Of a stretch of DNA of 30,143 nt, positions 3,659 to 30,143 are shown one piece after another. The position numbers and the translations under genes are program-made. The notes under the pieces are model-generated. The model searched no databases. It was not told the origin of the DNA and worked only from the letters and a program-made list of their open reading frames with translations. The first letter of the stretch is position 1. Each line of letters begins with the position of its first letter. The DNA comes from a virus: IMG/VR virus record IMGVR_UViG_3300031746_002900, positions 1 through 30,143 of that record; one strand, 5' to 3'.

Positions 3659-3693
3659 TTGTCTTTCCTTTGTTGATTGGTTATACTGTACGC
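3659..3693. promoter_or_regulatory. Divergent promoter region; TATACT box right before the terminase ATG
   Basis: TATACT lies at 3682-3687 and the terminase ATG starts at 3694, about where transcription would begin, so the terminase message may be leaderless; no ribosome site precedes the ATG. Read leftward, the box is CAGTATAAC and is followed by CAAAGGAAAG, the ribosome site of the MoxR-like gene. The same pairing occurs at 586-646. Confidence 0.35.
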
Positions 3694-5313: not shown

Positions 5314-8300
5314 CTAGATGGCCTTGGCGAGGTTTTCTTCGAGGACAGCTTCTTCCAGTTCGTTGCGGATGTCGCACTCCATAAAGTCCTCTTCAACTTC
5401 AATTACCTGCAGAGCGCCCATGGTGTCTAGGTACTTCCGCGCTGAGATGAGCTCGCCGTAGGACGGTCCCATTTCCACGTCCCACTGGAAAGGAACAGGT
5501 AGCCAGGGATACTTTTTGGCAACAGCGTCGACACCGTGTTTCTGGATGAAGTCAGGAATCTGGTGCAAGTACTTTTTGGGTATTTGCATCACGAGGGAGT
5601 CATGCACGGTGTTCATCAGCTGACCGCCAAAGTCACCGCGGATGGCGTCGTCTACGGAAGCCATGACGTCCATGACGATGTCCGAGCTCGTACTCTGAAT
5701 CTTGAAGTTGATGCTCTGGCGCTCAGCGCGACTACGCTGCCAGGAGGTCAACTTCTTCAGGTCGAAGCGTCGGCGCCTACCGATAAACGTCTCGACCATT
5801 CCGAATGACCGAAGTTGCTGCTGCGTTATGGCGATGTAGTTAGGGATAGACGGGAACATCTTGAACAGCGTGTCGATGACGATCTGTGCCTGCTCATCCG
5901 GGATGCCGACGATAGACGCAATCTTCTTCTTGGCTGCGCCATAAAGGATGCCGAACACCACGCGCTTAACGATGGTGCGCAGTTTGTCTAGCATAACGCC
6001 GTAAGCGCGGTCCTTGCTATCCTCACTCGTGTCACGCACGCAGAAGTCTTCGTAGTTCCAGGCGTGGTTTTCGTCGATACCGACCGTACTGAGAACTTTG
6101 TGCTTATCACCCGGAGCTATGCCGCTTAGAACGTTGGCAGGGTTGTAAACGATGGACGCAAAGAAGCTATGGGGATCCATGCCCTTGTTTAAGGCGTCGA
6201 TGAGGTTCTTATCGTGACTGTAGGCGGCGTAGATACGGACTTCTGCAGCTTTCGCATCGGTGTTGACGATGGCGAATGTCCCAGAATCAGTGGGTACAAA
6301 CATCCTCTTAATGTTGTGACCCCCAATTTTCTTGGGGATATTCTGCATGTTTTCTTGCGAACTTGAGAGCCGGCCCGACGAGGTGCCGTGCTGGTGGAAG
6401 TTGCTATGCATCCTCCCATCTTCAGCACTCAGTACGAGGATATTCTCAACGAATGTGTTCCTCGCTTTCTTGATGGCTCGATGTCTGAGTAGCGCAGCAC
6501 AGAACGCACAGTTATGCTCCGTAACCAGCCGCCTTAAGAAGGAAGCGTTCGTAGATATCTGGCCGGTATCTGTACGCGGTGGTTCAACGCGGCCATTGTA
6601 GCAGACGCATTCTTTTGTTTCAGGATGCACGTACCCGCGGCTGTACAGAATAGCGGCAATCTGCTGAGAGCTCTCCGGGTTCAGCGCATCCTTAGTCCCG
6701 GAGATCAGCATTGAGTTGAGCTCGATATGGGACAGGATCAAGGAAGAGTCCATCTTTGTTGCGAGCTCGAGAGCATACTCCCGGTCGACGGGCATTCCAT
6801 GGAGTTCCATACGCGCCAGGACTCGCGCCGTAGGAACGGTGCGTGTCTTCATGATGTGTTCAAGCGGCGTCGCGGTGTTGCAGTGCGGAATCGCGCCCGC
6901 TTTGACGAGAGTCTGGGGGCTTTTGCTGGCTTGTACGCGCGCTTCGTAGAGTTTGACGTCTTCGCGGCGCATGCGTTTCATTTGCATGGACCGGATACGC
7001 CACGTTGCTTCACCGTCGATTGCACCGTACGGATTAAGAAGGTCCAGACCGATGTCGATAAAGCCGTCGTCCTCGATTAAGAGTTTGGCGATACCCTTTA
7101 TCTTGGTAGTACCGTTAGCTTCAGCCTCGGCGGCTTTAGCTTCTTTTGTCTTCTTGTTCCGGTTGAGGATGTTGTGCAGCTCATCCTCGTAGTTGGCGAA
7201 TTCTGGCACGTCTAGTTTTACGATTTCCTTTAGGCCGTAGAATCCTTTCTTATCCTCAGCCAAAAGGTGCTCGCCGAGCATGGTATCCCAGTAGATGTTG
7301 TTGACTTCGAATCCTTTGCGCCAAAGAACTTTGAGATCGAACTTAGTGTTATGGAAGATCTTTGGCTTAGGGCACATGAAAAGCTTATTCAGCATTGGAC
7401 GAACATCCTCGAGAGACCACGTACTCTCTGGGTGCTCTACTGGGATCGAGGTCGCTTTTCCGTGTCCCCAAGAAACGATGACAGTAAGAAGCTTGAGCTT
7501 TTCGCGGTGGGGATACTTGGTGTTGGTTTCAGTATCGATTGATATGGAGTGCTTCTCAGGTGACGTGTTTTGCGGGACGTGGAAACCAATGATGTGGTCA
7601 ACTACTTCGGATACTTCCTGGAGTGTCTTCGGGAAGATATAGTTGCGGGTGATGTCTGCGGTGGTTTTCGTACACTGGAGCGCTTTGCCCTCAACGTTGT
7701 TTTGCACTGCTTTTAGGAACAGCTCAATCTGCTGCCCCGCAACTTCGGAGAATCCCGCTTTGGCGTCAATCTGCCTCTTGGAAAGTCCGCCGTATACGAT
7801 GACCTTGCGTCCGCTGAGTTCGATTTCGGTGTAGTTTCCCTGGTAGTCTCCATACTTCTTTGCGGAGATACCGAGTGCTTTGAGGACGGTGATGCCCATC
7901 GCGAACAACATGATGGGACGGTCTTTTACAGCACGCTCGAGGATGCGGGCGCGTAGAAAGTGTTGGCATGCTTTGAGGTGCTTAGAGGAGGGCTTATCAA
8001 CCGTACACCGTACCGCGTAGGTAAAGTCCCCGGCGAAGGTGCGCATACCTGCGTTTTTTTCCTGTATCGTTTTAAAGGTCTGGTATATCACGCGCTCCGC
8101 GTCGGTGTCCCAGCATGAGTGCCCGTTGATAGTACGAGACACTGGACTCAGGGTGGGAGATTCAGCCACGCAGAAGTAGTCGCAGTTACGTAGAGGACCT
8201 ATGCCCTCTGCGTAATGGTCTTCTTGGTAGCTAGGACATCTTTTACAGGTTTCATCCGGCCACGCCTCTGATTTTTTACAGAGGTCGCAGTCTCTGCCGA

Positions 8301-8331
8301 TAACGGTCTCTGTGCGTTGATTTTTAAACAT
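5314..8331 (-). CDS. polA: A-family DNA polymerase with 3'-5' exonuclease and N-terminal UDG-like Fe-S domain
   Basis: I chose the ATG at 8331 (1005 aa), which overlaps the primase stop by 8 bases; an upstream ATG at 8382 would add 17 residues. Residues about 10-205 resemble family 4 uracil-DNA glycosylases: CDLC (C15, C18), AVRC109 and C122 match the four 4Fe-4S ligands, and AESP replaces the usual GEAPG. The His of the second catalytic motif is not visible, so uracil excision is doubtful. The exonuclease has DTET (D266, E268), HNTKFD (D332) and YGAID (Y435, D439). The polymerase has motif A NTDAKAAEVRIY (D692), motif B RTIVKRVVFGILYG (R785, K789, F793) and motif C VHDS (H910, D911), where Ser replaces the common Glu. 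It is probably the main replicative polymerase and is cotranscribed with the primase. Confidence 0.93.
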   Translation of the reverse strand: MFKNQRTETVIGRDCDLCKKSEAWPDETCKRCPSYQEDHYAEGIGPLRNCDYFCVAESPTLSPVSRTINGHSCWDTDAERVIYQTFKTIQEKNAGMRTFAGDFTYAVRCTVDKPSSKHLKACQHFLRARILERAVKDRPIMLFAMGITVLKALGISAKKYGDYQGNYTEIELSGRKVIVYGGLSKRQIDAKAGFSEVAGQQIELFLKAVQNNVEGKALQCTKTTADITRNYIFPKTLQEVSEVVDHIIGFHVPQNTSPEKHSISIDTETNTKYPHREKLKLLTVIVSWGHGKATSIPVEHPESTWSLEDVRPMLNKLFMCPKPKIFHNTKFDLKVLWRKGFEVNNIYWDTMLGEHLLAEDKKGFYGLKEIVKLDVPEFANYEDELHNILNRNKKTKEAKAAEAEANGTTKIKGIAKLLIEDDGFIDIGLDLLNPYGAIDGEATWRIRSMQMKRMRREDVKLYEARVQASKSPQTLVKAGAIPHCNTATPLEHIMKTRTVPTARVLARMELHGMPVDREYALELATKMDSSLILSHIELNSMLISGTKDALNPESSQQIAAILYSRGYVHPETKECVCYNGRVEPPRTDTGQISTNASFLRRLVTEHNCAFCAALLRHRAIKKARNTFVENILVLSAEDGRMHSNFHQHGTSSGRLSSSQENMQNIPKKIGGHNIKRMFVPTDSGTFAIVNTDAKAAEVRIYAAYSHDKNLIDALNKGMDPHSFFASIVYNPANVLSGIAPGDKHKVLSTVGIDENHAWNYEDFCVRDTSEDSKDRAYGVMLDKLRTIVKRVVFGILYGAAKKKIASIVGIPDEQAQIVIDTLFKMFPSIPNYIAITQQQLRSFGMVETFIGRRRRFDLKKLTSWQRSRAERQSINFKIQSTSSDIVMDVMASVDDAIRGDFGGQLMNTVHDSLVMQIPKKYLHQIPDFIQKHGVDAVAKKYPWLPVPFQWDVEMGPSYGELISARKYLDTMGALQVIEVEEDFMECDIRNELEEAVLEENLAKAI

Positions 8332-11300
8332 CGTCGCTTGTTGCCTCCAGGTCACGCTCAGCGTCAGTGAGTTCTCGCTCATCCATCGTGGTTACAGTAC
8401 GTGGAGCATGCACGTCAGTTGACGTTATCCAGTCACGTGCGCGTATCCCGCAGATGTCTTGTGGATTGATACCTGTTCCAAGGTAATTTTTCATACGGTC
8501 TAGTATCCCTAGTTTTACTAGGTCGTCGGGGGGCACTGCGTCATGATGGCGATCTAGGATGGATTTAAGTACGGGGCTATTTAAATGACGTGCGGTACGG
8601 TAATGCTGGGGTATGAGTGTACTGATGGCGGGCTCAAGGTGTACCACCATTATCTCTGTTATGTCGTCGTAATAGATTCCGTTAGGATAAGAGTTGATAG
8701 TTAGCCGTTGTCCAGGGTTTGCTAGCAGCATCGCTACGGAGTACTTGCGCTGGTTAGGTCGGTCTTCGCATACTGGGTTTGTGAGCATGGCGTTTAGGTA
8801 CATGCTCGACTCAGAGATACGGGCACCGCGTTCGATCATGTCCTGGTTGGCGGTTACGAAATCCAGGAAAATCTTCTTCCAATCCATTCCCAGAAATTCT
8901 GCAACTGCGAACATCCCCACAAAGGAAGAGATGTACCTGGGCTCGAGTCGAGACTTAAGCGGTATGGTTGCCGCATACGTCGAGAGTTCGAGTCTGACGG
9001 TATCGTACAGTGCTTGGATTTCATGGGCATGTGCGTACATCGCCGTATTGAGGCGGTATGCTATGTCGTAGATTTTTTCTGGAGTAAAACCAGCGCGCTT
9101 GAGGCAGATGAAGGAAGACTCGCGCCCTACTTGCTTAAGCGTTTCAATTACTAAAAGTCGGTTATAGTCCTGGGGTTTTTCAGTGGTGTTAATGGCGGCG
9201 AAGATGACGTTCATCTTTAAGCGTTTTGAGACTGAGTGTCCCGCCATGCCCATGCGCTTGCGCTCAGTGGCACCGCTTACCGTGCCTCGAACAGATTCCA
9301 TAATGTTCTGGGCGCGTTTACCGCGGGCGCTATCTTCCCCCGTTTCAAACTCATCGAAAATCATGGCGCGAGTATCGTAATTACACTCGTCAGCCATACT
9401 CGCTTCGGTTGCGTTATCCGATCCGTGGGAACTCCACAGCAGGAGTAGCTCACGGTAGAATGCATAGAAAGTGGAGAGAAGCGAAGATTTTCCTGAGTTC
9501 GATTCACCAGTAAAGAACGCCAAGAGCGTACGCTCAAATGCGTCCGAAATTGGGAAGGACATAATCATAAGGGGCAGGAGTGGAATTGTCTCGGCGTGAT
9601 TCTTAAGGACGAATCCCACATCATAAAGATGGAATAAGTCTTTTTGGAGTTGCTGCACATCGACAGTCTTACCGAAGTTGAGGTCTTCGATGGTTAGGCG
9701 CTTTTTGGGGCCAAACCAACCTTCAGGCGCTCGTCCACTATACCCTACGTCAAAGATGATCTCGCCGTCGCGGGGAACCAGCAACAAGGTGTAGTCTGTT
9801 CCAGTACCTGTACGAATGATCTTAAAGACATCCGGGCCACATACCACGTACTCTTGCCCCTCACCAAACCAGTGGTACCCTTGTTTAGGCAGGTTATCCA
9901 CATTGAGAGTCGGGATACCACGGGCCATATTGGTAACGGCTTCGCGAAAGTAGAACCGTAGCTTACGGTCAATGTTGGAGAGCTTGTCCCCACCCTTTTC
10001 AGCTGTTATGAAAGACGGGATTCCTAGGTGCTTGAGAGCGAATTCATGGAGGGTGCCTTCCACCTGCGCAAGTTGCTGAGCGATACTTGAAGCGTCGTCT
10101 AAACAAATTGTGTGGTACTCGCGGCGCTGGACGTTGTAGGTGACGAGAAGCTTTCCGGATCCTCCCTCGACATTACGCACACCCACGATTTGAAGGATGC
10201 CGCGGATAGCTTCTTCGCAGCGGAGAATGTAGCCGTACTCATCGTCTACTTGAGATGCCAGGTCGCGTATGAGGACTTCTGCGTTAATCCGTCCCGTGTA
10301 CTTATTGGCCAGTTCCTCTGCGTAGTATTCGTGGTCTTTTCGATTCTGTAAGCAAGCGCCTTGCGCTTTAGCGATATCGGATAGCTTTCGGTGGTCCAGC
10401 GCGTCTACCTGGTCCATCTCTATCACGGCGCGGTCAAACACCCAGCGCCAGGGCATTGCTATATTGGCTGGGTTTCCCAGCGTCTTCATAAGTACGTCGT
10501 ATCCGAGGCTGGGCGTATTGACTGCTTCGTCAAAGTCCTTGGCGGGGTAAAGGTCTTTCCATCCGTCGAATATGTACGTGTTTAGCTCTTTAAGGTCCCC
10601 GAGCCAGACACGAACAATTTTATCTCCCGCTTCGTTTGGTGCGTCACCTATTAGCAATGCTTCACTGATACCCGAAGACTTAAGGATGTCCTCGAGCTGA
10701 CTCCCACCTCCGCCGCCTCCCACGCTTATCAAGGGGTACTCACAAGCACCGCGTAGCACGTACTGTGACATGGTGGTGAGAGCGTCCATCTCACCTTCTA
10801 CAAGGTAGGCGCGCATGCCGGCGCCTTGCGCATTATGCAAAAGCGGCCCGTAGAGCTCCCAGCCTAGACCAAATATGCCGTGATGCTCGACGTAGTCGTC
10901 ATCAATCATCAGCCACTGGTGCCCTGGCTGCGGTACTCGAATCTTAATACGCCCAATTTCTGTGGGAGAGATGTGCAGTGGGAATACGAGTCCGCCGGCG
11001 TACTTCGCACTACTGCGGTACGCTGGTTCGATATAGGTGACTGCCGCCTCTGCGATGTTATCAGGTTTTTGTAGAGTGGTAGGGCTATTCATCCACGCTT
11101 TTGTTAATAGGTTATGCTCTGCTTCTAGTGCGATAGATATCTCGGCGAGAGGCGGGAGAATACCCACAGGGAGAGCCGGGAGTGTGTCAATGTGAATACG
11201 GCGTGTTTGGAGCAGCCACTCAAGCGATTCTTTAGCTCCGGCGTACTTTGGATTCGTTGGATCGCCAGCTGCACGGCACATGTAGTCATGCGTTATCCTG

Positions 11301-11704
11301 CACACCGCCGTTTTAGCGAGGGTGTTTAGGTGCATCGCCTCGAACTCGGCGGTAGTCTTCTTGGGAAGACCTTTAATGTTGTAGTCTTCTATTATGGACT
11401 TATAAGCGGCATCCTTAGTCTGACTCGTAATTATCGCATAGAGCTCTATGGGGTTAGAGGTGTGCTTTTTACACCCAAAGCACTTCGCATAGTGCTTACC
11501 GGTGTAGATGTTGAAAGAGGGGTTAGTGTCCGGGTGATCCGGGTGGACGCACAGACCCAGGAGCGTCCCCTCCGATTTGGTCATGAAGCGACCTTGGGGT
11601 TGGTGCGCTTTTACAAGCTGCTCCCATCCCTGGTGTCCAATCGCTTCCCAAATTTTGCTAAGCTGTGCTCCCGTCAGACCCGCTGTTTTCTTGATGTCTG
11701 TCAT
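8324..11704 (-). CDS. DnaG-type primase fused to an SF3/DUF927-like helicase
   Basis: This 1126-residue protein would prime and unwind DNA at the replication fork. From the ATG at 11704, an N-terminal zinc finger has C52 with His54/57, then CFGC (C75, C78). A TOPRIM core follows with VEGEMDAL (E303) and LIGDAPNEAGDK (D354). A long unassigned middle part (about 390-720) comes next. The ATPase has Walker A TGESNSGKSS (K739) and Walker B AMIFDEFE (D784, E785); the segment between them (SHGSDNATEAS) recalls DUF927-type phage helicases rather than DnaB. An in-frame GTG at 11746 could extend it by 14 residues. Its 5' end overlaps the upstream nuclease gene by 47 bases, and its stop overlaps the polymerase start, so the three genes form an operon. 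Confidence 0.85.
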   Translation of the reverse strand: MTDIKKTAGLTGAQLSKIWEAIGHQGWEQLVKAHQPQGRFMTKSEGTLLGLCVHPDHPDTNPSFNIYTGKHYAKCFGCKKHTSNPIELYAIITSQTKDAAYKSIIEDYNIKGLPKKTTAEFEAMHLNTLAKTAVCRITHDYMCRAAGDPTNPKYAGAKESLEWLLQTRRIHIDTLPALPVGILPPLAEISIALEAEHNLLTKAWMNSPTTLQKPDNIAEAAVTYIEPAYRSSAKYAGGLVFPLHISPTEIGRIKIRVPQPGHQWLMIDDDYVEHHGIFGLGWELYGPLLHNAQGAGMRAYLVEGEMDALTTMSQYVLRGACEYPLISVGGGGGGSQLEDILKSSGISEALLIGDAPNEAGDKIVRVWLGDLKELNTYIFDGWKDLYPAKDFDEAVNTPSLGYDVLMKTLGNPANIAMPWRWVFDRAVIEMDQVDALDHRKLSDIAKAQGACLQNRKDHEYYAEELANKYTGRINAEVLIRDLASQVDDEYGYILRCEEAIRGILQIVGVRNVEGGSGKLLVTYNVQRREYHTICLDDASSIAQQLAQVEGTLHEFALKHLGIPSFITAEKGGDKLSNIDRKLRFYFREAVTNMARGIPTLNVDNLPKQGYHWFGEGQEYVVCGPDVFKIIRTGTGTDYTLLLVPRDGEIIFDVGYSGRAPEGWFGPKKRLTIEDLNFGKTVDVQQLQKDLFHLYDVGFVLKNHAETIPLLPLMIMSFPISDAFERTLLAFFTGESNSGKSSLLSTFYAFYRELLLLWSSHGSDNATEASMADECNYDTRAMIFDEFETGEDSARGKRAQNIMESVRGTVSGATERKRMGMAGHSVSKRLKMNVIFAAINTTEKPQDYNRLLVIETLKQVGRESSFICLKRAGFTPEKIYDIAYRLNTAMYAHAHEIQALYDTVRLELSTYAATIPLKSRLEPRYISSFVGMFAVAEFLGMDWKKIFLDFVTANQDMIERGARISESSMYLNAMLTNPVCEDRPNQRKYSVAMLLANPGQRLTINSYPNGIYYDDITEIMVVHLEPAISTLIPQHYRTARHLNSPVLKSILDRHHDAVPPDDLVKLGILDRMKNYLGTGINPQDICGIRARDWITSTDVHAPRTVTTMDERELTDAERDLEATSDDV

Positions 11705-12497
11705 GGTTACCCAGAACGTAGGCCGGACACTCTGTGCGGTTGTCACACCAGTTACACAAAGGTCCAGTTTTGGTTTTGTCGAAATCTGCCGTGTTGACCG
11801 TGGCTTTGTTCAGGCGCGTCATCACATTGTTGTAGAGTGTATCGAGGTCACCAACCGGCACTCGCTTTTCAGACAGTTCAATGGCGCCTTCTTGTACCCA
11901 GTGAATACCCGGTATCACGTGTGTGATTTCAGGATAATTGACTTTGATGAGGTAGTAGTACGCCTCAAACTGATGCGCGTAATACTCGAGGCTCCTCCTA
12001 GAACCCGTCTTGTGGTCAATTACCACGAAAAAAGGAGAATGCGCGATACACAACCCTACGTCGAGAACTCCGCGCAGCATGCCACTATTATCAAAAAACT
12101 TGAGTGCCCGGTCATCATAGCTAGCAGCGAGTTTTTTCTCTACAAGCAAGTTACCGCGTACACCGTGTTTAGTGCAGTACGCGCTAAAGCGACGCAGAAA
12201 ACTCTCCACTGATGGCACCATGTCCAACACGCGGGTCCGTTCGGGAGTGCACAACTTGTGCAGCTCCATGGCATTTCTTGTTGCGACCTCTACCGTCATA
12301 CCGTTGAGCGCAACTTCAATGATACTATGAACAGCTTTACCGACCAGCGCGTCTGCGTTATACGACTCCACTTTGCGTTTTATCACATACGAAAAATGGA
12401 ACTTTTTAGGACATTGTGCAGCGGTGTCAGCTTTAGACGTAGACCACGGCGCGTACTTGGATACAAACGCGGACGGAGCAACTCTGTCAGATAACAT
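11658..12497 (-). CDS. RecB/Cas4-like PD-(D/E)XK nuclease with Fe-S cysteines (279 aa)
   Basis: I chose the ATG at 12497 because GGGAGGA lies 6 bases upstream; the longer frame (to 12644) would start inside the terminator. The nuclease core shows H57, D146 (GVLDVG), DHK (D161, K163) and the following QFEAYYYL (Q176), the order of the PDDEXK_1 group. One N-terminal Cys (C29, QCPKKFHF) and a C-terminal CNWCDNRTEC (C248, C251, C257) match the four ligands of a 4Fe-4S cluster in Cas4 and AddB-type nucleases. It probably processes DNA ends in replication or recombination. There is no sign of CRISPR genes, so it is not a CRISPR Cas4. A similar nuclease is encoded at 17597-18439. Confidence 0.85.
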   Translation of the reverse strand: MLSDRVAPSAFVSKYAPWSTSKADTAAQCPKKFHFSYVIKRKVESYNADALVGKAVHSIIEVALNGMTVEVATRNAMELHKLCTPERTRVLDMVPSVESFLRRFSAYCTKHGVRGNLLVEKKLAASYDDRALKFFDNSGMLRGVLDVGLCIAHSPFFVVIDHKTGSRRSLEYYAHQFEAYYYLIKVNYPEITHVIPGIHWVQEGAIELSEKRVPVGDLDTLYNNVMTRLNKATVNTADFDKTKTGPLCNWCDNRTECPAYVLGNHDRHQENSGSDGSTA

Positions 12498-12510
12498 GGA
12501 GAATCCTCCC

Positions 12511-12584
12511 AAGAAAAAAAGAGACTGAAGAACTGCTACAGTGGCCGTGGGGGGGAACAAACCACTGCAGCAGTCTTCAGTCTC
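12511..12584 (-). terminator. Long hairpin terminator for the leftward gene at 12601-13596
   Basis: Arms at 12521-12544 and 12562-12584 pair over about 22 base pairs with one mismatch and one bulged base, closing a 17-base loop. On the minus strand the hairpin is followed by a run of seven T (plus-strand A run at 12514-12520), the usual form of an intrinsic terminator. The stem is unusually long, so it may also be an RNase III site or protect the upstream message. The ribosome site of the next gene starts only a few bases after the T run, so some read-through or a promoter just there is needed for the nuclease operon. Confidence 0.8.
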
Positions 12585-12600
12585 AGGATACGAACGCCGA

Positions 12601-13596
12601 CTACATCTTGCTGGTATCGTTTGCCAGGTCGTCAGACCCTTCACCGACAGCGTCAGGGTCCGCCGGTGGAACGATGTTCATGCCGCCGCCGGCACTCGAA
12701 ACCGCCGCGTCATCTACCGCGCCTTGAGCTTTACGGTAAACCGCCGCAGTGGTCGCCAGTACGTAATCCCGCTCTGCAGCCGCGGACATCGCGTCACAGA
12801 AGGGATAGATGGCGGTGGGGACGCGCTCCTCGTTGATTGGAGCAACCGTCATGACAAACCAGCGCATGGACTTGTCGGTCGCGCTTTTGCGCTCTTCGGT
12901 ACCAATCTTGTACCAACGCATCCAGGGCACACTTGTGCGCTGGGCGAAGTTGATCAGTTGCCGGCCAGCGGAGTTGCTGGTCTTCTGGAAACGGACGAGG
13001 ACGATGTCCTGGAGGTTGCGACGGAGCATGAACGCGTTGACCTCGTCGCGGCAGGACTGACTGACAGGCATGCTCTTATCGCGCCATGGGCGATAGTAAC
13101 AGTCGGCGCACTTACCGTGGGCGTCGCCGTACTTGCGGTCGTTCGAGCGGCAGAGGACTTGGAATCCGCCTTCGCTGTTATTATCCGCTGTCAGTGTGCG
13201 GCTCTCCCAGACAACGAGGGGCGTGCCTTCGAACGTCTTGCCAACGAACTCGTTGCTCGTGAGGAAGAAGTTGCCCGGAGCCATGTCCTCGGGACGGTTG
13301 GGATTGGCACCTACGCCGTGATACAGCTTGAGCTCGGTGTACACGGGATTAGCGCTGTCGGTGAGAACGCCCCTCTTATTGGGGTTGAGCTGTGCGAGAA
13401 TCTTCAGAAGGTTTTCTTGGAACTCCTCGGGGAAGCTGAAGATCGTCTCCTCGATCTCTTCCCGCGTTTTGATGTCTTGCTCGACACGCAGAAGCCGTTG
13501 TCCGTACTCGTGCAGGAAGAGGTCATTCCCTTCAAAGCGAGCGAGAGCGTTACCGGTATCCACCGTGGCGAGCGCGTCTGTTTTCGTTTCAGTCAT
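12601..13596 (-). CDS. Cys-containing protein of unknown function, possibly DNA-binding (331 aa)
   Basis: I chose the ATG at 13596, preceded by GGAG at good spacing; a GTG at 13620 would add 8 residues. The middle of the protein has four Cys (one at VLCRSND, then KCADC, then QSCRDE) that could bind zinc. Aromatic and basic residues follow (WMRWYK, MRWFVMT), and the C-terminus is a loose, acidic tail. A zinc-bearing core plus acidic tail, its place at the head of the replication block and its own strong terminator would suit an abundant single-strand DNA-binding protein. That is a guess from context; I do not recognise the family with certainty. Confidence 0.7.
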   Translation of the reverse strand: MTETKTDALATVDTGNALARFEGNDLFLHEYGQRLLRVEQDIKTREEIEETIFSFPEEFQENLLKILAQLNPNKRGVLTDSANPVYTELKLYHGVGANPNRPEDMAPGNFFLTSNEFVGKTFEGTPLVVWESRTLTADNNSEGGFQVLCRSNDRKYGDAHGKCADCYYRPWRDKSMPVSQSCRDEVNAFMLRRNLQDIVLVRFQKTSNSAGRQLINFAQRTSVPWMRWYKIGTEERKSATDKSMRWFVMTVAPINEERVPTAIYPFCDAMSAAAERDYVLATTAAVYRKAQGAVDDAAVSSAGGGMNIVPPADPDAVGEGSDDLANDTSKM

Positions 13597-13712: not shown

Positions 13713-14726
13713 ATGTCGGATGATTTCTTCTCTGACCGTACCTTTAAGACTTATTACGACGATGTCGGTAAGCACACAGTACTCACAACTCCTCAGGAGC
13801 GTGAACTTCTACTACGTTACAAGACGTGTCCACTATGTCATAAACGTTTGCCGCACCTAATCCGCCGTCCTAACTGCCCACATTGCGGAGAGATCTCGCC
13901 ACAGCGTGGCGATGGTAAAGCAGCTACTTGTACCACATGTGGCAAGCGTTTTGACCTAATCGTACCTCCGGCTTACTGCCCAGAATGTGGGTCATCTCGC
14001 GACACAATAGCGAGAGAGCAAATCCTAGTTACAAATTTACGTTTCGTCGTAAAGATGGCCAAGAAGTACTCTCGGCATCCATCCCACATACAGCGTTTAG
14101 TGTCGGCAGGTAACGTAGGTCTTATAGTGGCTCTCGACAAATTCGAGATTGAGCGCGGCACCAAGTTCCTAACGTACGCTGCATGGTGGATACAGAAGGA
14201 AATCCGAGAAGAACTCTATAACGGAGGGCTTGTTCGGATTCCCTCCCACAAACAGAAAACACAGCGTAAAAAGCAGAAGTTAGGAGCCTACACGTGTGTG
14301 GCTTGCGGATTACAAGCACATGACCCGTTAATCGCGTGTAAGTGTTCCCCCGGATTGTCTCCTGAATACTTCCAGACAGAGACTCTCGAAGACGAGTGCT
14401 TAACCACCCTAGTACCGATCGATAACGTCACGTTAATCGACGAGGACGATGCGGAGTTTCAGTATATTGACTCCACGATGGCAGATGCGCTGCGTGAAGC
14501 AATAACGTCTCTGGCAGTCCGCGTACGTGACCAATTCATCTTGATCCAGTACTACGACGTTGCACGTGATGACCGGAAAAATGGGAGTAAAACACTCCCA
14601 GAGATTGCCGAGATTTCAGGGGTTACGCCGGAGAGAGTCCGGCAGGTGAAGATGAAAGTCCTCAAAGAGCTCAAGAAAGAGCTTCAGAGGAGGTCACTCC
14701 GGGGGTCTGAGGATATCTGCAGGTAG
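13713..14726 (+). CDS. Sigma-70 family factor with several zinc-binding insertions
   Basis: A 337-residue sigma factor that would direct RNA polymerase, plausibly the viral enzyme encoded downstream, to viral promoters. Residues 8-37 resemble region 1.2. Four CxxC pairs follow (C39/C42, C55/C58, C73/C76, C89/C92), enough for two zinc ribbons. Region 2 spans about 98-180 and is very typical: LVTNLRFVVKMAKKYS, SAGNVGLIVALDKFE and FLTYAAWWIQKEIR. A third Cys group (C195, C198, C209, C211) sits where region 3 should begin. Region 4 (about 260-325) includes the helix-turn-helix TLPEIAEISGVTPERVRQVK. The first insert takes the position of the non-conserved region between 1.2 and 2.1. The start follows AGGAGGG. 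The gene ends two bases before the convergent parB stop. Confidence 0.9.
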   Translation: MSDDFFSDRTFKTYYDDVGKHTVLTTPQERELLLRYKTCPLCHKRLPHLIRRPNCPHCGEISPQRGDGKAATCTTCGKRFDLIVPPAYCPECGSSRDTIAREQILVTNLRFVVKMAKKYSRHPSHIQRLVSAGNVGLIVALDKFEIERGTKFLTYAAWWIQKEIREELYNGGLVRIPSHKQKTQRKKQKLGAYTCVACGLQAHDPLIACKCSPGLSPEYFQTETLEDECLTTLVPIDNVTLIDEDDAEFQYIDSTMADALREAITSLAVRVRDQFILIQYYDVARDDRKNGSKTLPEIAEISGVTPERVRQVKMKVLKELKKELQRRSLRGSEDICR

Positions 14727-23409: not shown

Positions 23410-26400
23410 ATGACTACCGAACTCACACCTCTATTGGTACATCCGGACACTAAGCGCGAAGCTATTCGGCAAAAGGTTATTGAGGGTATTCACGAGTCTT
23501 TCCCAATGCGTTCCCGTAATAAGATGGTTGAAATAACTGACGTGAAATTTACTCCAGAGAATTTCACGTCACGGGAACAGAAGAATGCGATTTTAAGTGG
23601 AAATACGCTATTTGAAGCCGTAAAGGGAACAGTAGTCGTAAAGGACCGCGACTCTGGACACGTCATCGATACTGCGAAAAACTTCCTGTTGGCAAAAGTG
23701 CCGTGGTTTACGCCGCGCCACACAGTTATTGTTGGGGGTAATGAGTACTCAATCTCCAGCATGGTTCGTCCAAAGCCTGGGGTTTATACCCGCAAACGGG
23801 CTAACGGCGTACTCGAAGCGAATTTCAACGTCGTTGGTACGAAGAATTTCAACATCACTATGGACCCTGAAAAGGGTGAACCAGAGCTAGAGTACGACTC
23901 TACGCACATTCCCTTATACCCCATTCTACGTAAATCTGGGCTCTCCCACGACCAGATTGCTTCAGCGTGGGGTAGGCAGCTCGCAGACGTTAACCAATCG
24001 CGTCTGATGAAGAACGCGGATGGTTCGGTCAGTAAGCTGTATACGAAGGCGGTTCCTGAGTACTTCCATAAACCTGGACTCTCAGCTGAAGAAAAAGCTC
24101 AAGAGATTTTCAGCCGGTATTCCAGTGCTCACATGGACCCTGAGGTCAATAAGCAAACACTCGGAGTAGCGCATAGCAAAATTACTCCACACAGCTTGCT
24201 CGACGCATCGTCAAAGATGCTGAAGATTTTCCGCAATGACGCTGAAGTAGACGACCGTGATAACCTCGACTTCAAGGTGATTAAGGGAATCGACGACTAC
24301 TTTAAAGAGCGTATCAAATTGGATGCGCGCGAAGTGTCGAAGAAGGTGGCGATCAAAATAGATGCGCACCCTGACATCAGACAAGCGATTCCTACTGGCG
24401 TATTTACAAAGGGCATTCTGCAGTTCATCAACAGCTCCTCGCTGTCTACCGTACCTACGCAGACCAACCCCATGGAGCTCGTGGACGCTGCACTGCGTAT
24501 CACAGCGCTGGGTGAAGGTGGTATCGGTTCTGAGCGCGCCATTCCAATGGACGCGCGCATGGTGCATCCGACACAGATTGGTGCGTTAGACCCCGTACGA
24601 ACTCCTGAGTCATTCGCAGCCGGCGTGGACGTTCGAGCTGCGATGATGGTCAAAAAGGATAAGGATGGAAACATCCATGTCCCCATGATCGACTTTAGAA
24701 CTGGCAGAGGTAAGTACGTACGTGCGGGAGAGATCATCAGTAAGGTAGTCGCGTTTCCTACGACGACTCCGCTAAAAGGAAAAGTCGATGCGCTAGTAAA
24801 TGGCGTCGTGCGTAAGGTAGACGTGTCGCAGGTAGACTACCAGTTGCCGCATCCCACATCGATGTACAGTCCCGCGGCGAACTTGATTCCGTTTTTAGAG
24901 TCGAACCAGGGCAATCGTTTGGTCATGGGGTCAAAGTACCAGACTCAAGCGCTGTCGTTGATTGACCGGGAAGAGCCCCACGTTCAGGTAATGTCTCAGT
25001 CGGGTAAGTCTTTCGAAGAACTCATGGGTACTCTGATTAACCCTGTAGCATCTGCGACTGGAGTAGTGTCAAAAATTGACGGAGACTTCGTACACATTCG
25101 AGCGGACAAAGACCATAAGACTGCCGCAAAAGAGGACATGCACCAGGTCTCTTACGATACTTTTTTGCCGATGGCAGCGAAAACGTATTTACACCATACC
25201 CTCACGGTAAAAGAGGGGGATCGTGTTAATGCAGGTCAGTCACTAGCCGATTCCAACTTCACCAAAAACGGCAAGTTGGCTTTAGGTAAAAACTTGAGCG
25301 TCGCGTACATGCCGTACTATGGTGACAACTCAAATGATGCAGTCGTTATCAGTGAAGGTGCCGCGAAGAAGCTAACGTCTGAGCGCATGTATAAGGTTGT
25401 CATTGACCGTGATCCTGACCTCTCGTTCAATCGAGATAAGCACCGAACGTATTATGGCCACAATTACACGAAAGACCACTACAGTAAGCTAGACGAGGAT
25501 GGGATTGTGAAGCCCGGTACGACTGTTATGCCGGGTGACATCGTAGTGGCAGGTCTTCGTAAGTCTCAGATGACTTCGGATGATATGCTGCTCGGACGTC
25601 TCCATAAGTCGCTAGCCCGCCCGTACCGTGAGAGTACTGAGTCCTGGGATCATGACCATGCTGGAGAAGTGGTAGATGTAGTTAAGACGCCCAAACGTTT
25701 TGCTCTCACTATTCGGACCAAAGAACCGATGACTATCGGGGATAAAATCGCTGGGCGGTTCGGGGACAAGGGCGTCGTATCGCGCATCATCCCAGATACG
25801 CAGATGATTAAAGACGAAAGTGGAAAACCTATTGATGTGATTGTCACATCTGCTGGGGTAGTTGGACGTATCAACCCCGCGCAGATTCTTGAAGGTGCGT
25901 TAGGTAAGGTTGTTGAAAAGACCGGTAAACCTATCTTGGTAGAGAACCTCACTGGTCGTAATAACATTCAATACGTACGTGGGATCATGAAAGAGCACGG
26001 TATTAAGGACAAAGAAACCGTGTATGACCCGATAGCGGATAAGCAGATTCCGAATGTGTTCGTTGGCAACCGGTACATGATGAAGTTGTTTAAGTCAACG
26101 GACACCAACTACAGTGCGCGAGGTGTAGAGAGTTACGACGCAAACATGCAGCCTACGAAAGGCGGCGTGATGAGCTCCAAGGCATTGGGCAAAATGGAGT
26201 TCGACGCACTTGTAGCACATAACGCTCGTAGTGTTTTGCAAGAAGTTGTCACGCTGAAGAGCCAGAAGAACGACGAGTACTGGCGTGCGCTGCAGTTGGG
26301 GTTGCCCACACCACCTCCAAAGACCACGTTCGCTTCCAACAAGTTTTTGAACATGCTGACGGGCGCCGGGGTACGCGTCGACCGTAAGGGAAGTAAGATA

Positions 26401-29265
26401 TCGCTTGCGCCTCTAACGGACAAAGACATCATGCAGATGTCGTCAGGTGCAATTACTGAAGCGAAGCTGGTGCGTGCAAAAGATTTGATGCCTGAAAAGG
26501 GTGGGTTATTTGACCCGGTCATTACGGGCGGAGTCCGCGGAGAGAAGTGGTCGCATATCGAGCTTGCTGAACCGATTATAAATCCCATGTTCATGGACCC
26601 GGTACGGCGTCTATTAGGTATGAACAACGCTCAGTTATCTCAGACCATCCGCGATAAGGGCGGAGCTCACATCAAAGCCGAGCTGGGCAAATTAGACTTG
26701 TCCGAAAAGGAGCGCGAGCTTCTGAATAAGACGAAGACGTTGACGGGATCGTCGTTGGATGACGCAGTAAAGCAGATCAAGTACATACGCGCGCTGAAGT
26801 CGCAGAATCTAAAGGCGAGTGACGCATACGTCGTATCAAAAGTCCCAGTAGTTCCCCCGCTTATTCGGCCAGTTCTTCCAAGCAAGGGCGGGCAAGAGCT
26901 CATGTATGGGGACATCAACCCTCTGTACCGCGACCTCATCTACGTAAACAACCAGCTTAAAGAGCTCAAAGAGTCAGGCAAGCTCCCAGAAGAAGAAGCC
27001 AAACTCCGTGACACGCTGCATGGCGCAGTGGGAGCGGTGTATGGGACGAATGAGCCGATTACGCAGAAGTCTCAGGCACGTGGCCACAAGGGTTTTCTGA
27101 CGTACATCGCAGGCGTAGGTAGTCCCAAGTTTGGGTACTTCCAGAAAAAGCTCATGTCACGGTCACAGGACGTTACCGGGCGTGGCACCATCGTTCCAGA
27201 CAGTACGCTCGGCATCGACGAAGTTGGGTTACCAGAAAACATGATCTGGGGGATGTACGAGCCCTTCCTTATTAGGAACCTCGTACGGCAGGGCTATCCA
27301 GCGCTTCAAGCCAAAGAGATGGTGAAGGACAAGCACCCAGCAGCTCGAGACTCAATGCTACGGGAAATCAAAGAACGTCCGGTCATGATTAACCGCGCGC
27401 CAACGCTGCATAGGTACAACATCATCGGCGCTTATCCGGTGCCGGTGCCGGGTAAAACAATCCGCACGAGTCCATTCCTAGAGGTAGGAATGAATGCAGA
27501 TTATGACGGTGATAGTGCAGATTGTACCCTAGAATTAGCCACTTGCGTCGACGGGAAACTCGTGCTACAAAGTCTCCACATCGGGGATTTCCCCCACAAC
27601 GAGGAGACGAAAAAAGTGACTGGAAACAAAGAGCTCTACGAAGTCCCGGCGAACACATTTGTCTTTGGCTACAGCGAGAAGAACAAGCGGGTTCAGCTTT
27701 GCGAGGTTTCTCATTTCTCGGTGCACCACGACTTGGAGATGGTGAAAGTCACGCTCATGAGCGGCCGGACGGTAAAAGTCTCCCAGGACCACAGCATGTT
27801 CGGCATGAACCCTGAAACGGGAGAGCTCACACGATTTAAGGCTGAAGAGGGTATTGGTTGGGGTACCCCCAAACCCCGCAAACTATTCGTGGAGCAAAAA
27901 CAAGAATTCCTTACAGAGAGCCAGGATGCTCCTGACTTAGAAAAAGTCCCCGTAGACTTCAATTTGGGATGGGTCCTTGGTGCGTGGGCTGGGGACGGTT
28001 GGGTAGGACATTCGAATGACAAACCCAATCAAGTATGTCTAGCAAAGGTCGACGCGGTAGTACGTCACACGTTTACGCAGCGCATGTTCAGGTACAAAGA
28101 GGACGCTATTTTACGCGAGTATTCGGCGACGCATAACTACGGTGGTGGAGATTACACTTCCACGAAGATTCACATAAACAACACTAAATTAGCGAAATGG
28201 TTTTCGGGCATAACTGAAGGTGTCAGAGGTTCCAAGAACAAGAAGCTTCCGAGTTGGTTCATGCACGGTAAAGAAGATTTCCTGTTGGGACTTCTCAGTG
28301 GGTTACTCGATACAGACGGTACCGTTTGCAGTGTGAAAGCCGTAGCCAAGAACAAACCGCAGATTATGGCGAACTACCAAACGATATCCCACAACTTAGC
28401 TGTAGACGTATCGACGCTGCTGTGCCTTTTAGGAGTGAAGTCCCGCATCCACCCGTACACCAAGAAGGAGAGTATGGAGACGTACTACAACGTAGTAATC
28501 TCTGTGCCCGACCTGCAGCGTATCGCCGGGCAGCTGGAGCTTGCTACTCAAGAGAAGGCGCAGGTCCTAAAAGAGCTGGCAAAGAACCCCTACAACATGG
28601 ACGCAGCGGAAAATGCCCGCTGGGACATGGTACCCATATCTCCGAAGCGGGCTAAGGCTCTCGCGCAGGCTAACGGCGCTCCTAAGGTAGCTCCAAGGGA
28701 TGATAGCACTGAAAATCTGGCACGCAAGCAGGTTTCTACAACCTACTCCTCGCTGATCCAGGCGGTCAAGAAGGGGCGCTTGAGCCGTTCCACACTGAAC
28801 GTTCTGCGTAAGCGCATCGGCGATGATACCGTACGGGCCATCAGCGGTGATGCCTGGTTCAACAACGTTACCAACGACGAGCTCGTCTGGGACTTCGTGG
28901 AGACGGTAGACCATGTCCCCGGGCGTCATACGGCGTGGGACCTCACCGTACCGGATGGTTGTACCTTCATGACAAGTGAGCAAATCATTGTCTATGACAC
29001 CCTCATGGTTCATACCCCGGTTTCACAGAAGGCCATCGAAGAGGTCAAAAAGATGACCCTCTCGAATCTGCTCTACGGCGACAAGTCGAAAGATGACCTT
29101 TTAGCCGTGCCTCGGCACGAAGCTATGATGGGAATTTCACACGCGTCCAGCGCCGACGACAAAGAACCCGTCAAAGTTTTCGCAAACAGGGCGGACGTTA
29201 TGAAGGATTACGCGGCGGGTAAGATTGGGATGGGCACGCACATCAAAATTAAGGACAGTAAATGA
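23410..29265 (+). CDS. Fused beta/N-terminal beta-prime RNA polymerase subunit interrupted by an intein
   Basis: This is the catalytic core of a multisubunit-type DNA-dependent RNA polymerase in one chain of 1951 residues (1456 without the intein). Beta signatures: YYGDNSNDAVVISE (from about 636), GDKIAGRFGDKGVVS (777-791) and GGVMSSKALGKMEFDAL (918-934). Beta-prime starts around residue 1000 with LMPEKGGLFDP and HIELAEPI, without the usual Zn-binding Cys. Then come GRGTIVPDSTLGIDEVGLP, RPVMINRAPTLHR and the metal-binding NADYDGD (1362-1368). The extein continues at TLMVHTPVS (1864) and ends 88 residues later, so the bridge helix, trigger loop and rest of beta-prime are absent. GTGGAG precedes the ATG by seven bases. 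A LigD-like gene overlaps its stop by ATGA. Confidence 0.93.
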   Translation: MTTELTPLLVHPDTKREAIRQKVIEGIHESFPMRSRNKMVEITDVKFTPENFTSREQKNAILSGNTLFEAVKGTVVVKDRDSGHVIDTAKNFLLAKVPWFTPRHTVIVGGNEYSISSMVRPKPGVYTRKRANGVLEANFNVVGTKNFNITMDPEKGEPELEYDSTHIPLYPILRKSGLSHDQIASAWGRQLADVNQSRLMKNADGSVSKLYTKAVPEYFHKPGLSAEEKAQEIFSRYSSAHMDPEVNKQTLGVAHSKITPHSLLDASSKMLKIFRNDAEVDDRDNLDFKVIKGIDDYFKERIKLDAREVSKKVAIKIDAHPDIRQAIPTGVFTKGILQFINSSSLSTVPTQTNPMELVDAALRITALGEGGIGSERAIPMDARMVHPTQIGALDPVRTPESFAAGVDVRAAMMVKKDKDGNIHVPMIDFRTGRGKYVRAGEIISKVVAFPTTTPLKGKVDALVNGVVRKVDVSQVDYQLPHPTSMYSPAANLIPFLESNQGNRLVMGSKYQTQALSLIDREEPHVQVMSQSGKSFEELMGTLINPVASATGVVSKIDGDFVHIRADKDHKTAAKEDMHQVSYDTFLPMAAKTYLHHTLTVKEGDRVNAGQSLADSNFTKNGKLALGKNLSVAYMPYYGDNSNDAVVISEGAAKKLTSERMYKVVIDRDPDLSFNRDKHRTYYGHNYTKDHYSKLDEDGIVKPGTTVMPGDIVVAGLRKSQMTSDDMLLGRLHKSLARPYRESTESWDHDHAGEVVDVVKTPKRFALTIRTKEPMTIGDKIAGRFGDKGVVSRIIPDTQMIKDESGKPIDVIVTSAGVVGRINPAQILEGALGKVVEKTGKPILVENLTGRNNIQYVRGIMKEHGIKDKETVYDPIADKQIPNVFVGNRYMMKLFKSTDTNYSARGVESYDANMQPTKGGVMSSKALGKMEFDALVAHNARSVLQEVVTLKSQKNDEYWRALQLGLPTPPPKTTFASNKFLNMLTGAGVRVDRKGSKISLAPLTDKDIMQMSSGAITEAKLVRAKDLMPEKGGLFDPVITGGVRGEKWSHIELAEPIINPMFMDPVRRLLGMNNAQLSQTIRDKGGAHIKAELGKLDLSEKERELLNKTKTLTGSSLDDAVKQIKYIRALKSQNLKASDAYVVSKVPVVPPLIRPVLPSKGGQELMYGDINPLYRDLIYVNNQLKELKESGKLPEEEAKLRDTLHGAVGAVYGTNEPITQKSQARGHKGFLTYIAGVGSPKFGYFQKKLMSRSQDVTGRGTIVPDSTLGIDEVGLPENMIWGMYEPFLIRNLVRQGYPALQAKEMVKDKHPAARDSMLREIKERPVMINRAPTLHRYNIIGAYPVPVPGKTIRTSPFLEVGMNADYDGDSADCTLELATCVDGKLVLQSLHIGDFPHNEETKKVTGNKELYEVPANTFVFGYSEKNKRVQLCEVSHFSVHHDLEMVKVTLMSGRTVKVSQDHSMFGMNPETGELTRFKAEEGIGWGTPKPRKLFVEQKQEFLTESQDAPDLEKVPVDFNLGWVLGAWAGDGWVGHSNDKPNQVCLAKVDAVVRHTFTQRMFRYKEDAILREYSATHNYGGGDYTSTKIHINNTKLAKWFSGITEGVRGSKNKKLPSWFMHGKEDFLLGLLSGLLDTDGTVCSVKAVAKNKPQIMANYQTISHNLAVDVSTLLCLLGVKSRIHPYTKKESMETYYNVVISVPDLQRIAGQLELATQEKAQVLKELAKNPYNMDAAENARWDMVPISPKRAKALAQANGAPKVAPRDDSTENLARKQVSTTYSSLIQAVKKGRLSRSTLNVLRKRIGDDTVRAISGDAWFNNVTNDELVWDFVETVDHVPGRHTAWDLTVPDGCTFMTSEQIIVYDTLMVHTPVSQKAIEEVKKMTLSNLLYGDKSKDDLLAVPRHEAMMGISHASSADDKEPVKVFANRADVMKDYAAGKIGMGTHIKIKDSK
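23538..23571. repeat. Perfect 12-bp inverted repeat inside the RNA polymerase gene
   Basis: TGACGTGAAATT (23538-23549) and AATTTCACGTCA (23560-23571) are perfect inverted repeats around a 10-base loop, about 130 bases into the coding region. It could be a protein-binding operator or an RNA hairpin, or simply chance within codons. Confidence 0.5.
27514..28998 (+). other. Intein with LAGLIDADG homing endonuclease in the RNA polymerase catalytic loop (495 aa)
   Basis: Removing residues 1369-1863 joins NADYDGD to TLMVHTPVS, which matches the normal NADFDGD-QMAVH-VP course of beta-prime, so these are the likely borders. The intein begins with Ser (SADCTLELATCVDGK), has a block B-like segment VKVSQDHSMFG, and LAGLIDADG-type helices at LGWVLGAWAGDG and LLGLLSGLLDTDG. 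Block F is near VDHVPGRHTAWDLTV, and the end reads FMTSEQIIVYD followed by Thr. Ser1 and a terminal Tyr-Asp in place of the common Cys1 and His-Asn are unusual. The endonuclease would spread the element into intein-free copies of the gene; splicing is needed for an active polymerase. Confidence 0.9.
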
Positions 29266-30143
29266 CGTCACCAGTACTAATCGACAACGCTGAAACGGGG
29301 CAGAAGCTCACGAAGCAGGACGTTATCGATTATTACAACGCGCCGCACATTCGTAAGGGTATCCTGGCGGGTATGTACGGCGAAGGTGTGCTGACAGTCA
29401 TGCAGCGCGAGCCAGGTAAACCGATCTATCGAAGATACCTCGCTAAAGATAGACCAATAGAGCTGCGTACCCCAGCGCATATGGAGCAGCTGACGCACCA
29501 ACGAACGGTCGAGATTCATCCAAGTGTTGGAGCGTCTACGAGCGTAATCTGGGTAGACCTCGATCCCGGAGAACATGTCGACCTTGACACTACCAAGGAC
29601 ACTGTACGGCAAGTACACAGTATGATGCGTACGCTACCGGACGCGGTGCACACGGATATCGCGTTCTCTGGTGGTCGAGGTTTTTATGTACGGTCATTTC
29701 TGTCTGCGCCGATGAACACTGACAAAGCGCGCATACTGCTTGCTTCGAAACTTTCTCCGCTAATAAACAGCGACCCCAAGTTGACTTTGGAGCCCCCCGG
29801 GAAGGGCCAGATTCGTTTGGATATTTCTACGCTGCATGACAAAGGCTCGATTCGAGCACTTTACTCGCTCAATGCTGCGACAGGTCTCGCGTCGGTCCCA
29901 GTGAAAACGCGGGAGCTCGAAGACTTCAATCCACACGTAGATGCGGATCCGCGGAGACTCACGTCCGAGAAGAAAATATCTGAATTTGCCCCTGGAATCC
30001 CAAAGGCACGGGTTACTCACCCCCTTCCAGAAGGAAGTGGGCACTCGTGGACGATGTCTGTTCAGCACCACAACGCTGACAAAGCGGGTCTACACTGGGA
30101 TCTGCGCCTGGTAGACCCTGAAACATCCCACGCGCACTCCTGG
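29262..30143 (+). CDS. LigD-like primase-polymerase (AEP) with 3'-phosphoesterase domain (partial, runs off the right edge)
   Basis: The ATG overlaps the stop of the RNA polymerase gene (ATGA) and the frame stays open for 294 codons to the window end. The N-terminus LTKQDVIDYYNAP matches the LigD polymerase opening. Motif I is VIWVDLDPGE (D99, D101), motif II FSGGRGFYV (S136-Y142, with Tyr where His is usual) and motif III IRLDIST (D187), followed by SIRALYSLN. From about 262, VQHHNADKAGLHWDLRL (H270, H278, D280, R282) and HSW match the LigD 3'-phosphoesterase domain. The order is polymerase then phosphoesterase, as in mycobacterial LigD; whether a ligase domain follows cannot be seen. Expected role: filling and trimming DNA ends in non-homologous end joining. 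No Ku gene is visible here. Confidence 0.85.
   Translation, partial: MTSPVLIDNAETGQKLTKQDVIDYYNAPHIRKGILAGMYGEGVLTVMQREPGKPIYRRYLAKDRPIELRTPAHMEQLTHQRTVEIHPSVGASTSVIWVDLDPGEHVDLDTTKDTVRQVHSMMRTLPDAVHTDIAFSGGRGFYVRSFLSAPMNTDKARILLASKLSPLINSDPKLTLEPPGKGQIRLDISTLHDKGSIRALYSLNAATGLASVPVKTRELEDFNPHVDADPRRLTSEKKISEFAPGIPKARVTHPLPEGSGHSWTMSVQHHNADKAGLHWDLRLVDPETSHAHSW

Follow-up and report, generated by a model that had tools for sequence, protein, structure and literature searches.

The RNA polymerase gene on a 30,143-base virus fragment (IMG/VR record IMGVR_UViG_3300031746_002900, analysed over its whole length and here called the window) is interrupted at its catalytic loop by an intein that begins with Ser and ends with Tyr-Asp. 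This intein very probably represents a mobile clade of class 1 type that is specific to the catalytic loop of phage polymerases and splices with a terminal Asp.

The insert is in frame, with junctions ...GMNADYDGD/SADCTLELATC...QIIVYD/TLMVHTPVSQ (slashes mark borders) in the open reading frame at 23410-29265. Within it, Pfam detects Intein_splicing (5.1e-9, over the cut-off) and LAGLIDADG_3 (2.6e-11), and the NCBIfam rpoC profile TIGR02386 matches on both sides of the insert, upstream with model positions 163-446 and downstream with 449-535. An AlphaFold2 model of the intein, made with a 9-sequence alignment (predicted local distance difference test, pLDDT, 83.5; predicted template modelling score, pTM, 0.84), has as its best match in the PDB the TliVMA intein with its endonuclease (7qss; E 5.6e-22; TM 0.64/0.74). 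The Pfam domain and the model match both point to the HINT splicing fold. Two LAGLIDADG motifs with acidic residues (GDG at residues 160-162 and DTDG at 266-269) predict an endonuclease nested in that fold. Six intein-free homologues (L003-L008; 56-67% identity over 338 residues) run uninterrupted through the site, with sequences such as NADYDGD/SMNIHVPV, NADYDGD/TFQVHVPV and NADYDGD/AIQLHAPV, and Vibrio phage D69, a cultured phage, shares the architecture of beta plus N-terminal beta' without an intein (AADYDGD/AMSVFAPV). Homologues that lack the 495 residues rule out a normal polymerase domain as the identity of the insert.

A preliminary description, made from the window alone, had called 27514-28998 an intein placed directly after NADYDGD, with Ser first, Tyr-Asp last and Thr in the +1 position, and had proposed that intein-free homologues be used to confirm the borders. 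The domains, the model and the empty sites bear this out with exact coordinates, the loop aligns to the segment of Escherichia coli beta' that ends at D464, the translated reading frame gives the same end residues, and the six homologues confirm the borders. Because an Asp precedes both splice junctions (27511-27516 and 28996-29001), the comparison with empty sites is compatible with two borders one residue apart; 27514-28998 was chosen because the conserved Ser or Cys at position 1 and Thr, Ser or Cys at +1 suit intein chemistry. Because the Mg-binding loop is where the insert splits the catalytic domain, it can reasonably be inferred that the unspliced polymerase would be inactive, as had also been proposed.

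A same-site family and its natural splits

A collection of viral contigs was scanned for codons specifying NAD[FY]DGD followed by Cys (NGD also allowed), then by any residue, then by Ser. Among the matches listed, these scans yielded 26 inteins at exactly the site of the window, 18 complete in cis and 8 split. Asp is the last residue in all 26, preceded by Trp (10), Tyr (7), Gln (7) or Phe (2) and never by His. A 27th member, assembled in the analysis from the ends of two contigs in a single metagenomic bin (L027 and L039), ends in His-Gln, which brings terminal Asp to 26 of 27 complete or split inteins, the eight splits included. The first residue is Ser in 21 of the 26 and Cys in 5, and the +1 residue is Thr in 19, Cys in 5 and Ser in 2, although the sequences are related, with near-duplicates (L308/L316/L331 and window/L010/L011/L012), and such counts are not independent trials. 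The ends of the window intein are thus atypical, as the preliminary description had stressed, but they are not peculiar to one gene: Ser1 with a terminal Asp is the norm at this site. The frequency of Ser1 in the scans also rules it out as a degenerate mutation, and the Asp end is a clade-wide trait that looks like a working variant of splicing and not decay.

Intein-free beta' genes provide a baseline for the +1 residue. Among the matches listed, 105 such genes have Thr (47), Ala (29), Gln (21), Ser (4), Lys (3) or Glu (1) at this position, so that Thr or Ser occurs in 51 and Cys in none. Against this background, Thr, Cys or Ser in 26 of 26 inteins shows that the nucleophile for ligation is retained, the strongest argument that the sequences offer for ligation over simple cleavage.

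Asn is the last residue of all ten inteins compared from other sites (TPE/C and GDKL/C in polymerase beta, DNA polymerase, terminase, helicase, L033 and the phage EL polymerase). A search of 399 bacterial genomes with TIGR01443 found 25 intein C-termini, 23 with Asn, one unclear (L371) and one (L372) that is the Gln-ended same-site member described above; the profile is biased toward Asn, which makes the count an approximate control. A tree built from 37 splicing domains places all 27 same-site inteins in a single clade (ultrafast bootstrap, UFBoot, 92) apart from the ten Asn-ended inteins, and the 26 Asp-ended inteins group at UFBoot 76, with the alignment being short (149 columns) and deep branches weak. 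Among cultured phages, tblastn with the window segment and with the L122 intein found zero same-site members; the intein in the phage EL polymerase occupies a different site and has a His-Asn end. A scan of bacterial and archaeal genomes for NADxDGD-C, which did not extend to the Ser1 form, gave one polymerase match, in a proteobacterial bin and possibly on a phage contig. The insertion site is unnamed in any paper found by an open literature search.

Each of the eight split members has a gene for the N-terminal half of beta' that ends with intein-N and a separate gene for the C-terminal half that begins with intein-C, which is the arrangement of a naturally split intein. The loci are G013 (L276/L292), G014 (L279), G017 (L312/L337), G018 (L315/L335), G019 (L318/L338), G020 (L329/L336), G021 (L317/L340) and G022 (L319/L347), and the halves are adjacent in some and 25-77 kb apart in others. 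In G013, a 520-residue N-half on the minus strand (10.4-11.9 kb) ends with ...NADFDGD/SVLCDC...IIKYK and a stop codon, and the C-half on the plus strand at 88.4 kb starts with MNKNIEL...YDFTVEDYFTFCTDDGIFVQD/SMSIIHPL. The intein is divided as in G013 in G017, G018, G019 and G020, where the halves are about 0.3-1.3 kb apart; between the halves of G017 and G020 lies a gene with a DUF7487 domain, a candidate homing endonuclease. Very early splits in G014, G021 and G022 leave an intein-N of 44, 26 and 24 residues, respectively, and in G014 sequences resembling ribosome-binding sites (AGGAGG/GGAGG) precede the intervening open reading frame and the C gene. All eight split members have Ser1, and their C-halves end in Asp. 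Seven of the eight group together in the tree and G021 stands apart, which suggests that splitting probably occurred at least twice. The arrangement implies that in these phages the catalytic loop of the polymerase is completed by trans-splicing.

Class and splicing route

The window intein has every feature of a class 1 intein other than the terminal His-Asn. Its Ser1 and Thr+1 fall within the class 1 pattern (first residue Cys or Ser, +1 residue Cys, Ser or Thr), a pattern found in 26 of 26 clade members, and S-Q-D-H, with Ser for Thr, stands at the block B position of T-x-x-H, together with the F:4 Asp (D476). The Tyr-Asp end replaces the usual His-Asn, a departure that is an accepted variant and does not exclude membership. 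Inteins that end in Glu, Gln or Asp are described as splicing by the class 1 pathway, in which that last residue cyclises, other mechanisms being possible (PMC4031507). Class 2 (KlbA type, with Cys+1 and neither Cys nor Ser at position 1) is ruled out by Ser1 and Thr+1, class 3 (Cys at F:4, no nucleophile at position 1) by the F:4 Asp and Ser1, and a bacterial intein-like domain, which has no +1 nucleophile, by Thr, Ser or Cys at +1 throughout the 26.

The proposal is that the catalytic loop hosts a mobile intein, equipped with a homing endonuclease, which is most likely excised after translation by the four-step class 1 route. Ser1 would attack the bond between Asp(-1) and itself to form an ester, and the N-extein would then be transferred to Thr+1, giving a branched intermediate. 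In the third and least certain step, the terminal Asp would cleave the C-terminal junction, probably via a cyclic anhydride. An O-N shift would finally produce ...NADYDGD-TLMVH..., an intact catalytic loop with the ligated junction peptide NADYDGDTLMVH. In some clade members the endonuclease has been lost and the intein divided between two genes, which would act by trans-splicing.

The protein might instead be cut at one or both junctions without ligation, with the polymerase pieces assembling non-covalently as in multi-piece phage polymerases. Jumbo-phage polymerases made of several polypeptides exist (PMC7598289), beta' is already broken 88 residues downstream of the intein, the intein lacks the terminal Asn and the two His that usually assist, and Asp at -1 favours N-terminal cleavage (PMC11842431). 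However, such cleavage needs no +1 nucleophile, yet one is present in every same-site intein and in only about half of the intein-free genes. If the chain were cut just behind the final catalytic Asp, the active site would also contain a newly made terminus, and the split members have kept both intein halves. Cleavage without ligation is therefore unlikely.

Several observations nevertheless weigh against class 1 splicing. The block B His is replaced by Ala in L011 and by Asp in L154, with the other splicing residues kept in both. The third step has no obvious catalyst, because the F:13 His and the penultimate (G:6) His are missing throughout the Asp-ended clade, where other residues, often aromatic, take their places. 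Asp at -1, which is fixed by the polymerase active site, promotes early cleavage of the N-terminal junction in many inteins (PMC11842431); any connection of Asp(-1) with Ser1 and the terminal Asp is speculative. On the favourable side, the ratio of nonsynonymous to synonymous substitution rates (dN/dS) of the intein is 0.04-0.09, with synonymous sites near saturation, which indicates strong purifying selection, but selection on the endonuclease alone could account for part of this. With splicing by way of the terminal Asp still the preferred reading, we lean toward a distinct chemistry of C-terminal cleavage for the whole clade, based on an invariant Asp without a helper His, with the split members building a catalytic centre from two proteins whose genes can lie as far as about 77 kb from each other.

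Selection and mobility

Three contigs carry the intein of the window at 77-83% identity, with Cys1 and an identical VYD/T end. Because these closest relatives have Cys1, and one base change converts it to Ser, the window copy could be a decaying intein that splices poorly after losing Cys1 and the His-Asn end. Decay is very improbable, since Ser1 occurs in 21 and the Asp end in all of the 26 same-site inteins, dN/dS against relatives is 0.04-0.06, the frame is intact and both endonuclease motifs are present.

Relationships among exteins and inteins disagree. Between the window and L010 the extein is 65% identical and the intein 83%, and between the window and L011 the extein is 97% identical and the intein 83%, with similarity along the intein being mosaic. 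This conflict, together with the mosaic pattern, indicates horizontal movement and recombination of the intein, as homing predicts. An intein is present at the site in about 10 of 118 sampled beta' genes, among the matches listed; three more genes flagged by the filter (L073, L152 and L255) were plain on inspection.

Such patchy presence in related phages is more in keeping with mobility than with a conserved control device, and this bears on the suggestion in the preliminary description that slow or conditional splicing times viral transcription. Insertion in the catalytic loop ties polymerase activity to splicing, and the three Cys1 relatives have a C1-A-D-C4 motif with a potential disulphide. 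However, the window has Ser1 and hence no such switch, and no condition or sensor was identified; sequence data in favour of regulation were not found, and we give it little credence. A redox switch through C1-A-D-C4 is ruled out for the window, with the motif restricted to the three relatives.

Other inteins occur in these genomes. The near relative G002 (L035) has a His-Asn intein in its DNA polymerase at GRL/C...HN/SSSQENM, a site that is empty in the window (GRLSSSQENM; gene at 5314-8382, minus strand). Two more sites lie in the beta part of the RNA polymerase, GDKL/C...GN/S (at the GDK...NKGV motif) and TPE/C...GN/S (L012, L290, L291; L004, L293). L012, which starts at CYAVNTDILT, has inteins in both beta and beta', as do the records of L139, L072 and L164.

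The polymerase gene and known systems

Table 1. Features of the polymerase precursor gene and its intein in the window
Feature	Position	Strand	Basis or remark
Gene for phage RNA polymerase beta + beta'-N fusion precursor	23410..29265	+	1951 aa; 1456 aa without intein; open reading frame translation, Pfam, TIGR02386
N-extein: beta and N-terminal part of beta', up to NADYDGD	23410..27513	+	Pfam RNA_pol_Rpb2_6 (7.5e-46), Rpb1_1, Rpb1_2
NADYDGD, catalytic Mg2+-binding aspartate loop; final Asp is residue -1	27493..27513	+	Alignment to E. coli beta', with D464 as last residue
Intein, 495 aa; splicing domain and nested LAGLIDADG endonuclease (predicted)	27514..28998	+	Pfam, intein-free homologues, structure model
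Ser1 codon AGT, first nucleophile	27514..27516	+	Sequence comparison; TGT or TGC (Cys) in three closest relatives
Block B S-Q-D-H at class 1 T-x-x-H position	27781..27792	+	Alignment; His in 24/26 of clade
First LAGLIDADG motif, LGWVLGAWAGDGWVG	27964..28008	+	Motif reading
Second LAGLIDADG motif, GLLSGLLDTDGTV	28288..28326	+	Pfam and motif reading
Block F WDLTVPDGCTF; F:4 Asp (D476) present, usual F:13 His absent	28936..28968	+	Alignment
Block G end Tyr494-Asp495, replacing His-Asn	28993..28998	+	Asp in all 26 scored same-site inteins
Thr+1, second nucleophile	28999..29001	+	Open reading frame translation, homologue comparison
C-extein, 88 residues of beta' (TLMVHTPVSQ...)	28999..29262	+	TIGR02386 positions 449-535

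The window also encodes a terminase large subunit, a family A DNA polymerase, an AAA ATPase and a sigma-70-type factor, all phage genes. Pfam and NCBIfam profiles assign residues 1-1368 of the precursor to the beta subunit of bacterial RNA polymerase and, behind it, the first part of beta' (Table 1). What remains of beta' has its own gene in the relatives G002, G003 and G016 (open reading frames of about 600 residues with RNA_pol_Rpb1_5 matches), and the division reported for jumbo-phage and cyanobacterial polymerases resembles this break of beta' after the catalytic domain (PMC7598289). The sigma-70-type factor (13713-14726, plus strand), which has an unusual N-terminal Cys cluster resembling a zinc ribbon, is possibly a partner of the polymerase. 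Immediately 3' of the polymerase gene, and overlapping it by four bases, is a gene (29262-30143, plus strand) with a match to the LigD primase-polymerase domain (1.2e-8). In Vibrio phage D69 (L296, OZ195729.1), the beta plus beta'-N fusion (3166-7749) and beta'-C (8388-10217) are deposited as hypothetical proteins. L009 encodes a beta-beta' fusion polymerase as one chain of 2491 residues (5621-13093), in which GADVDGD replaces NADYDGD.

The window intein shares with class 1 inteins that have a nested LAGLIDADG endonuclease (TliVMA, 7qss; PI-PfuI, 1dq3) the fold, Ser or Cys at position 1, block B S-x-D-H, the F:4 Asp, Thr, Ser or Cys at +1 and the endonuclease motifs. In contrast with those two, it has a terminal Asp and neither the penultimate nor the F:13 His, and it is 10-19% identical to its best structure matches. 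To our knowledge, Asp-ended inteins have been rare exceptions, and release of the C-extein by Asp is not known to have rested on more than one natural example. Gln and Asp C-termini were reportedly the subject of a 2004 study by Amitai, Dassa and Pietrokovski (J Biol Chem 279:3121; cited in PMC4031507), with inteins of CIV and Carboxydothermus hydrogenoformans; one Asp-ended intein is said to have spliced, and its change from Asp to Asn to have abolished splicing. The window intein has the terminal Asp in common with these, but compared with the exceptional single intein reportedly described in that work, the present inteins are a site-specific clade with Asp in 26 of 26 and natural splits. 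With 26 natural sequences, three +1 nucleophiles and two first nucleophiles, residues that replace the missing His could be sought by comparison and mutagenesis, and the clade could inform the chemistry by which Asp substitutes for Asn in C-extein release, if splicing occurs.

The host protein family is shared with known RNA polymerase inteins, namely those of Mja rPol A' and A'' and of eukaryotic RPA2, RPB2 and RPC2, the last three having sites in or near the active-site cleft (PMC1635734); in this respect the position of the window intein is a usual one. Unlike these, the present clade lies in a bacterial-type phage beta', directly after NADFDGD. In phages with split members, protein trans-splicing may put together the core of the RNA polymerase, a possibility relevant to the fragmentation of phage polymerases into many pieces. 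These members, each of which has Ser1, could also supply new natural tools for trans-splicing. Dassa et al. in 2009 reportedly described naturally split inteins in fractured phage genes with intervening endonucleases. Those systems resemble the present ones in having two half genes, and the DUF7487 gene, a candidate endonuclease, lies between the halves in G017 and G020. They differ in that the host gene here is RNA polymerase beta', interrupted at the catalytic loop, that the C-halves end in Asp and that intein-N can be as short as 24-44 residues. What appears to be new is a clade of Asp-ended inteins that is specific to one site in phage RNA polymerase and includes natural splits.

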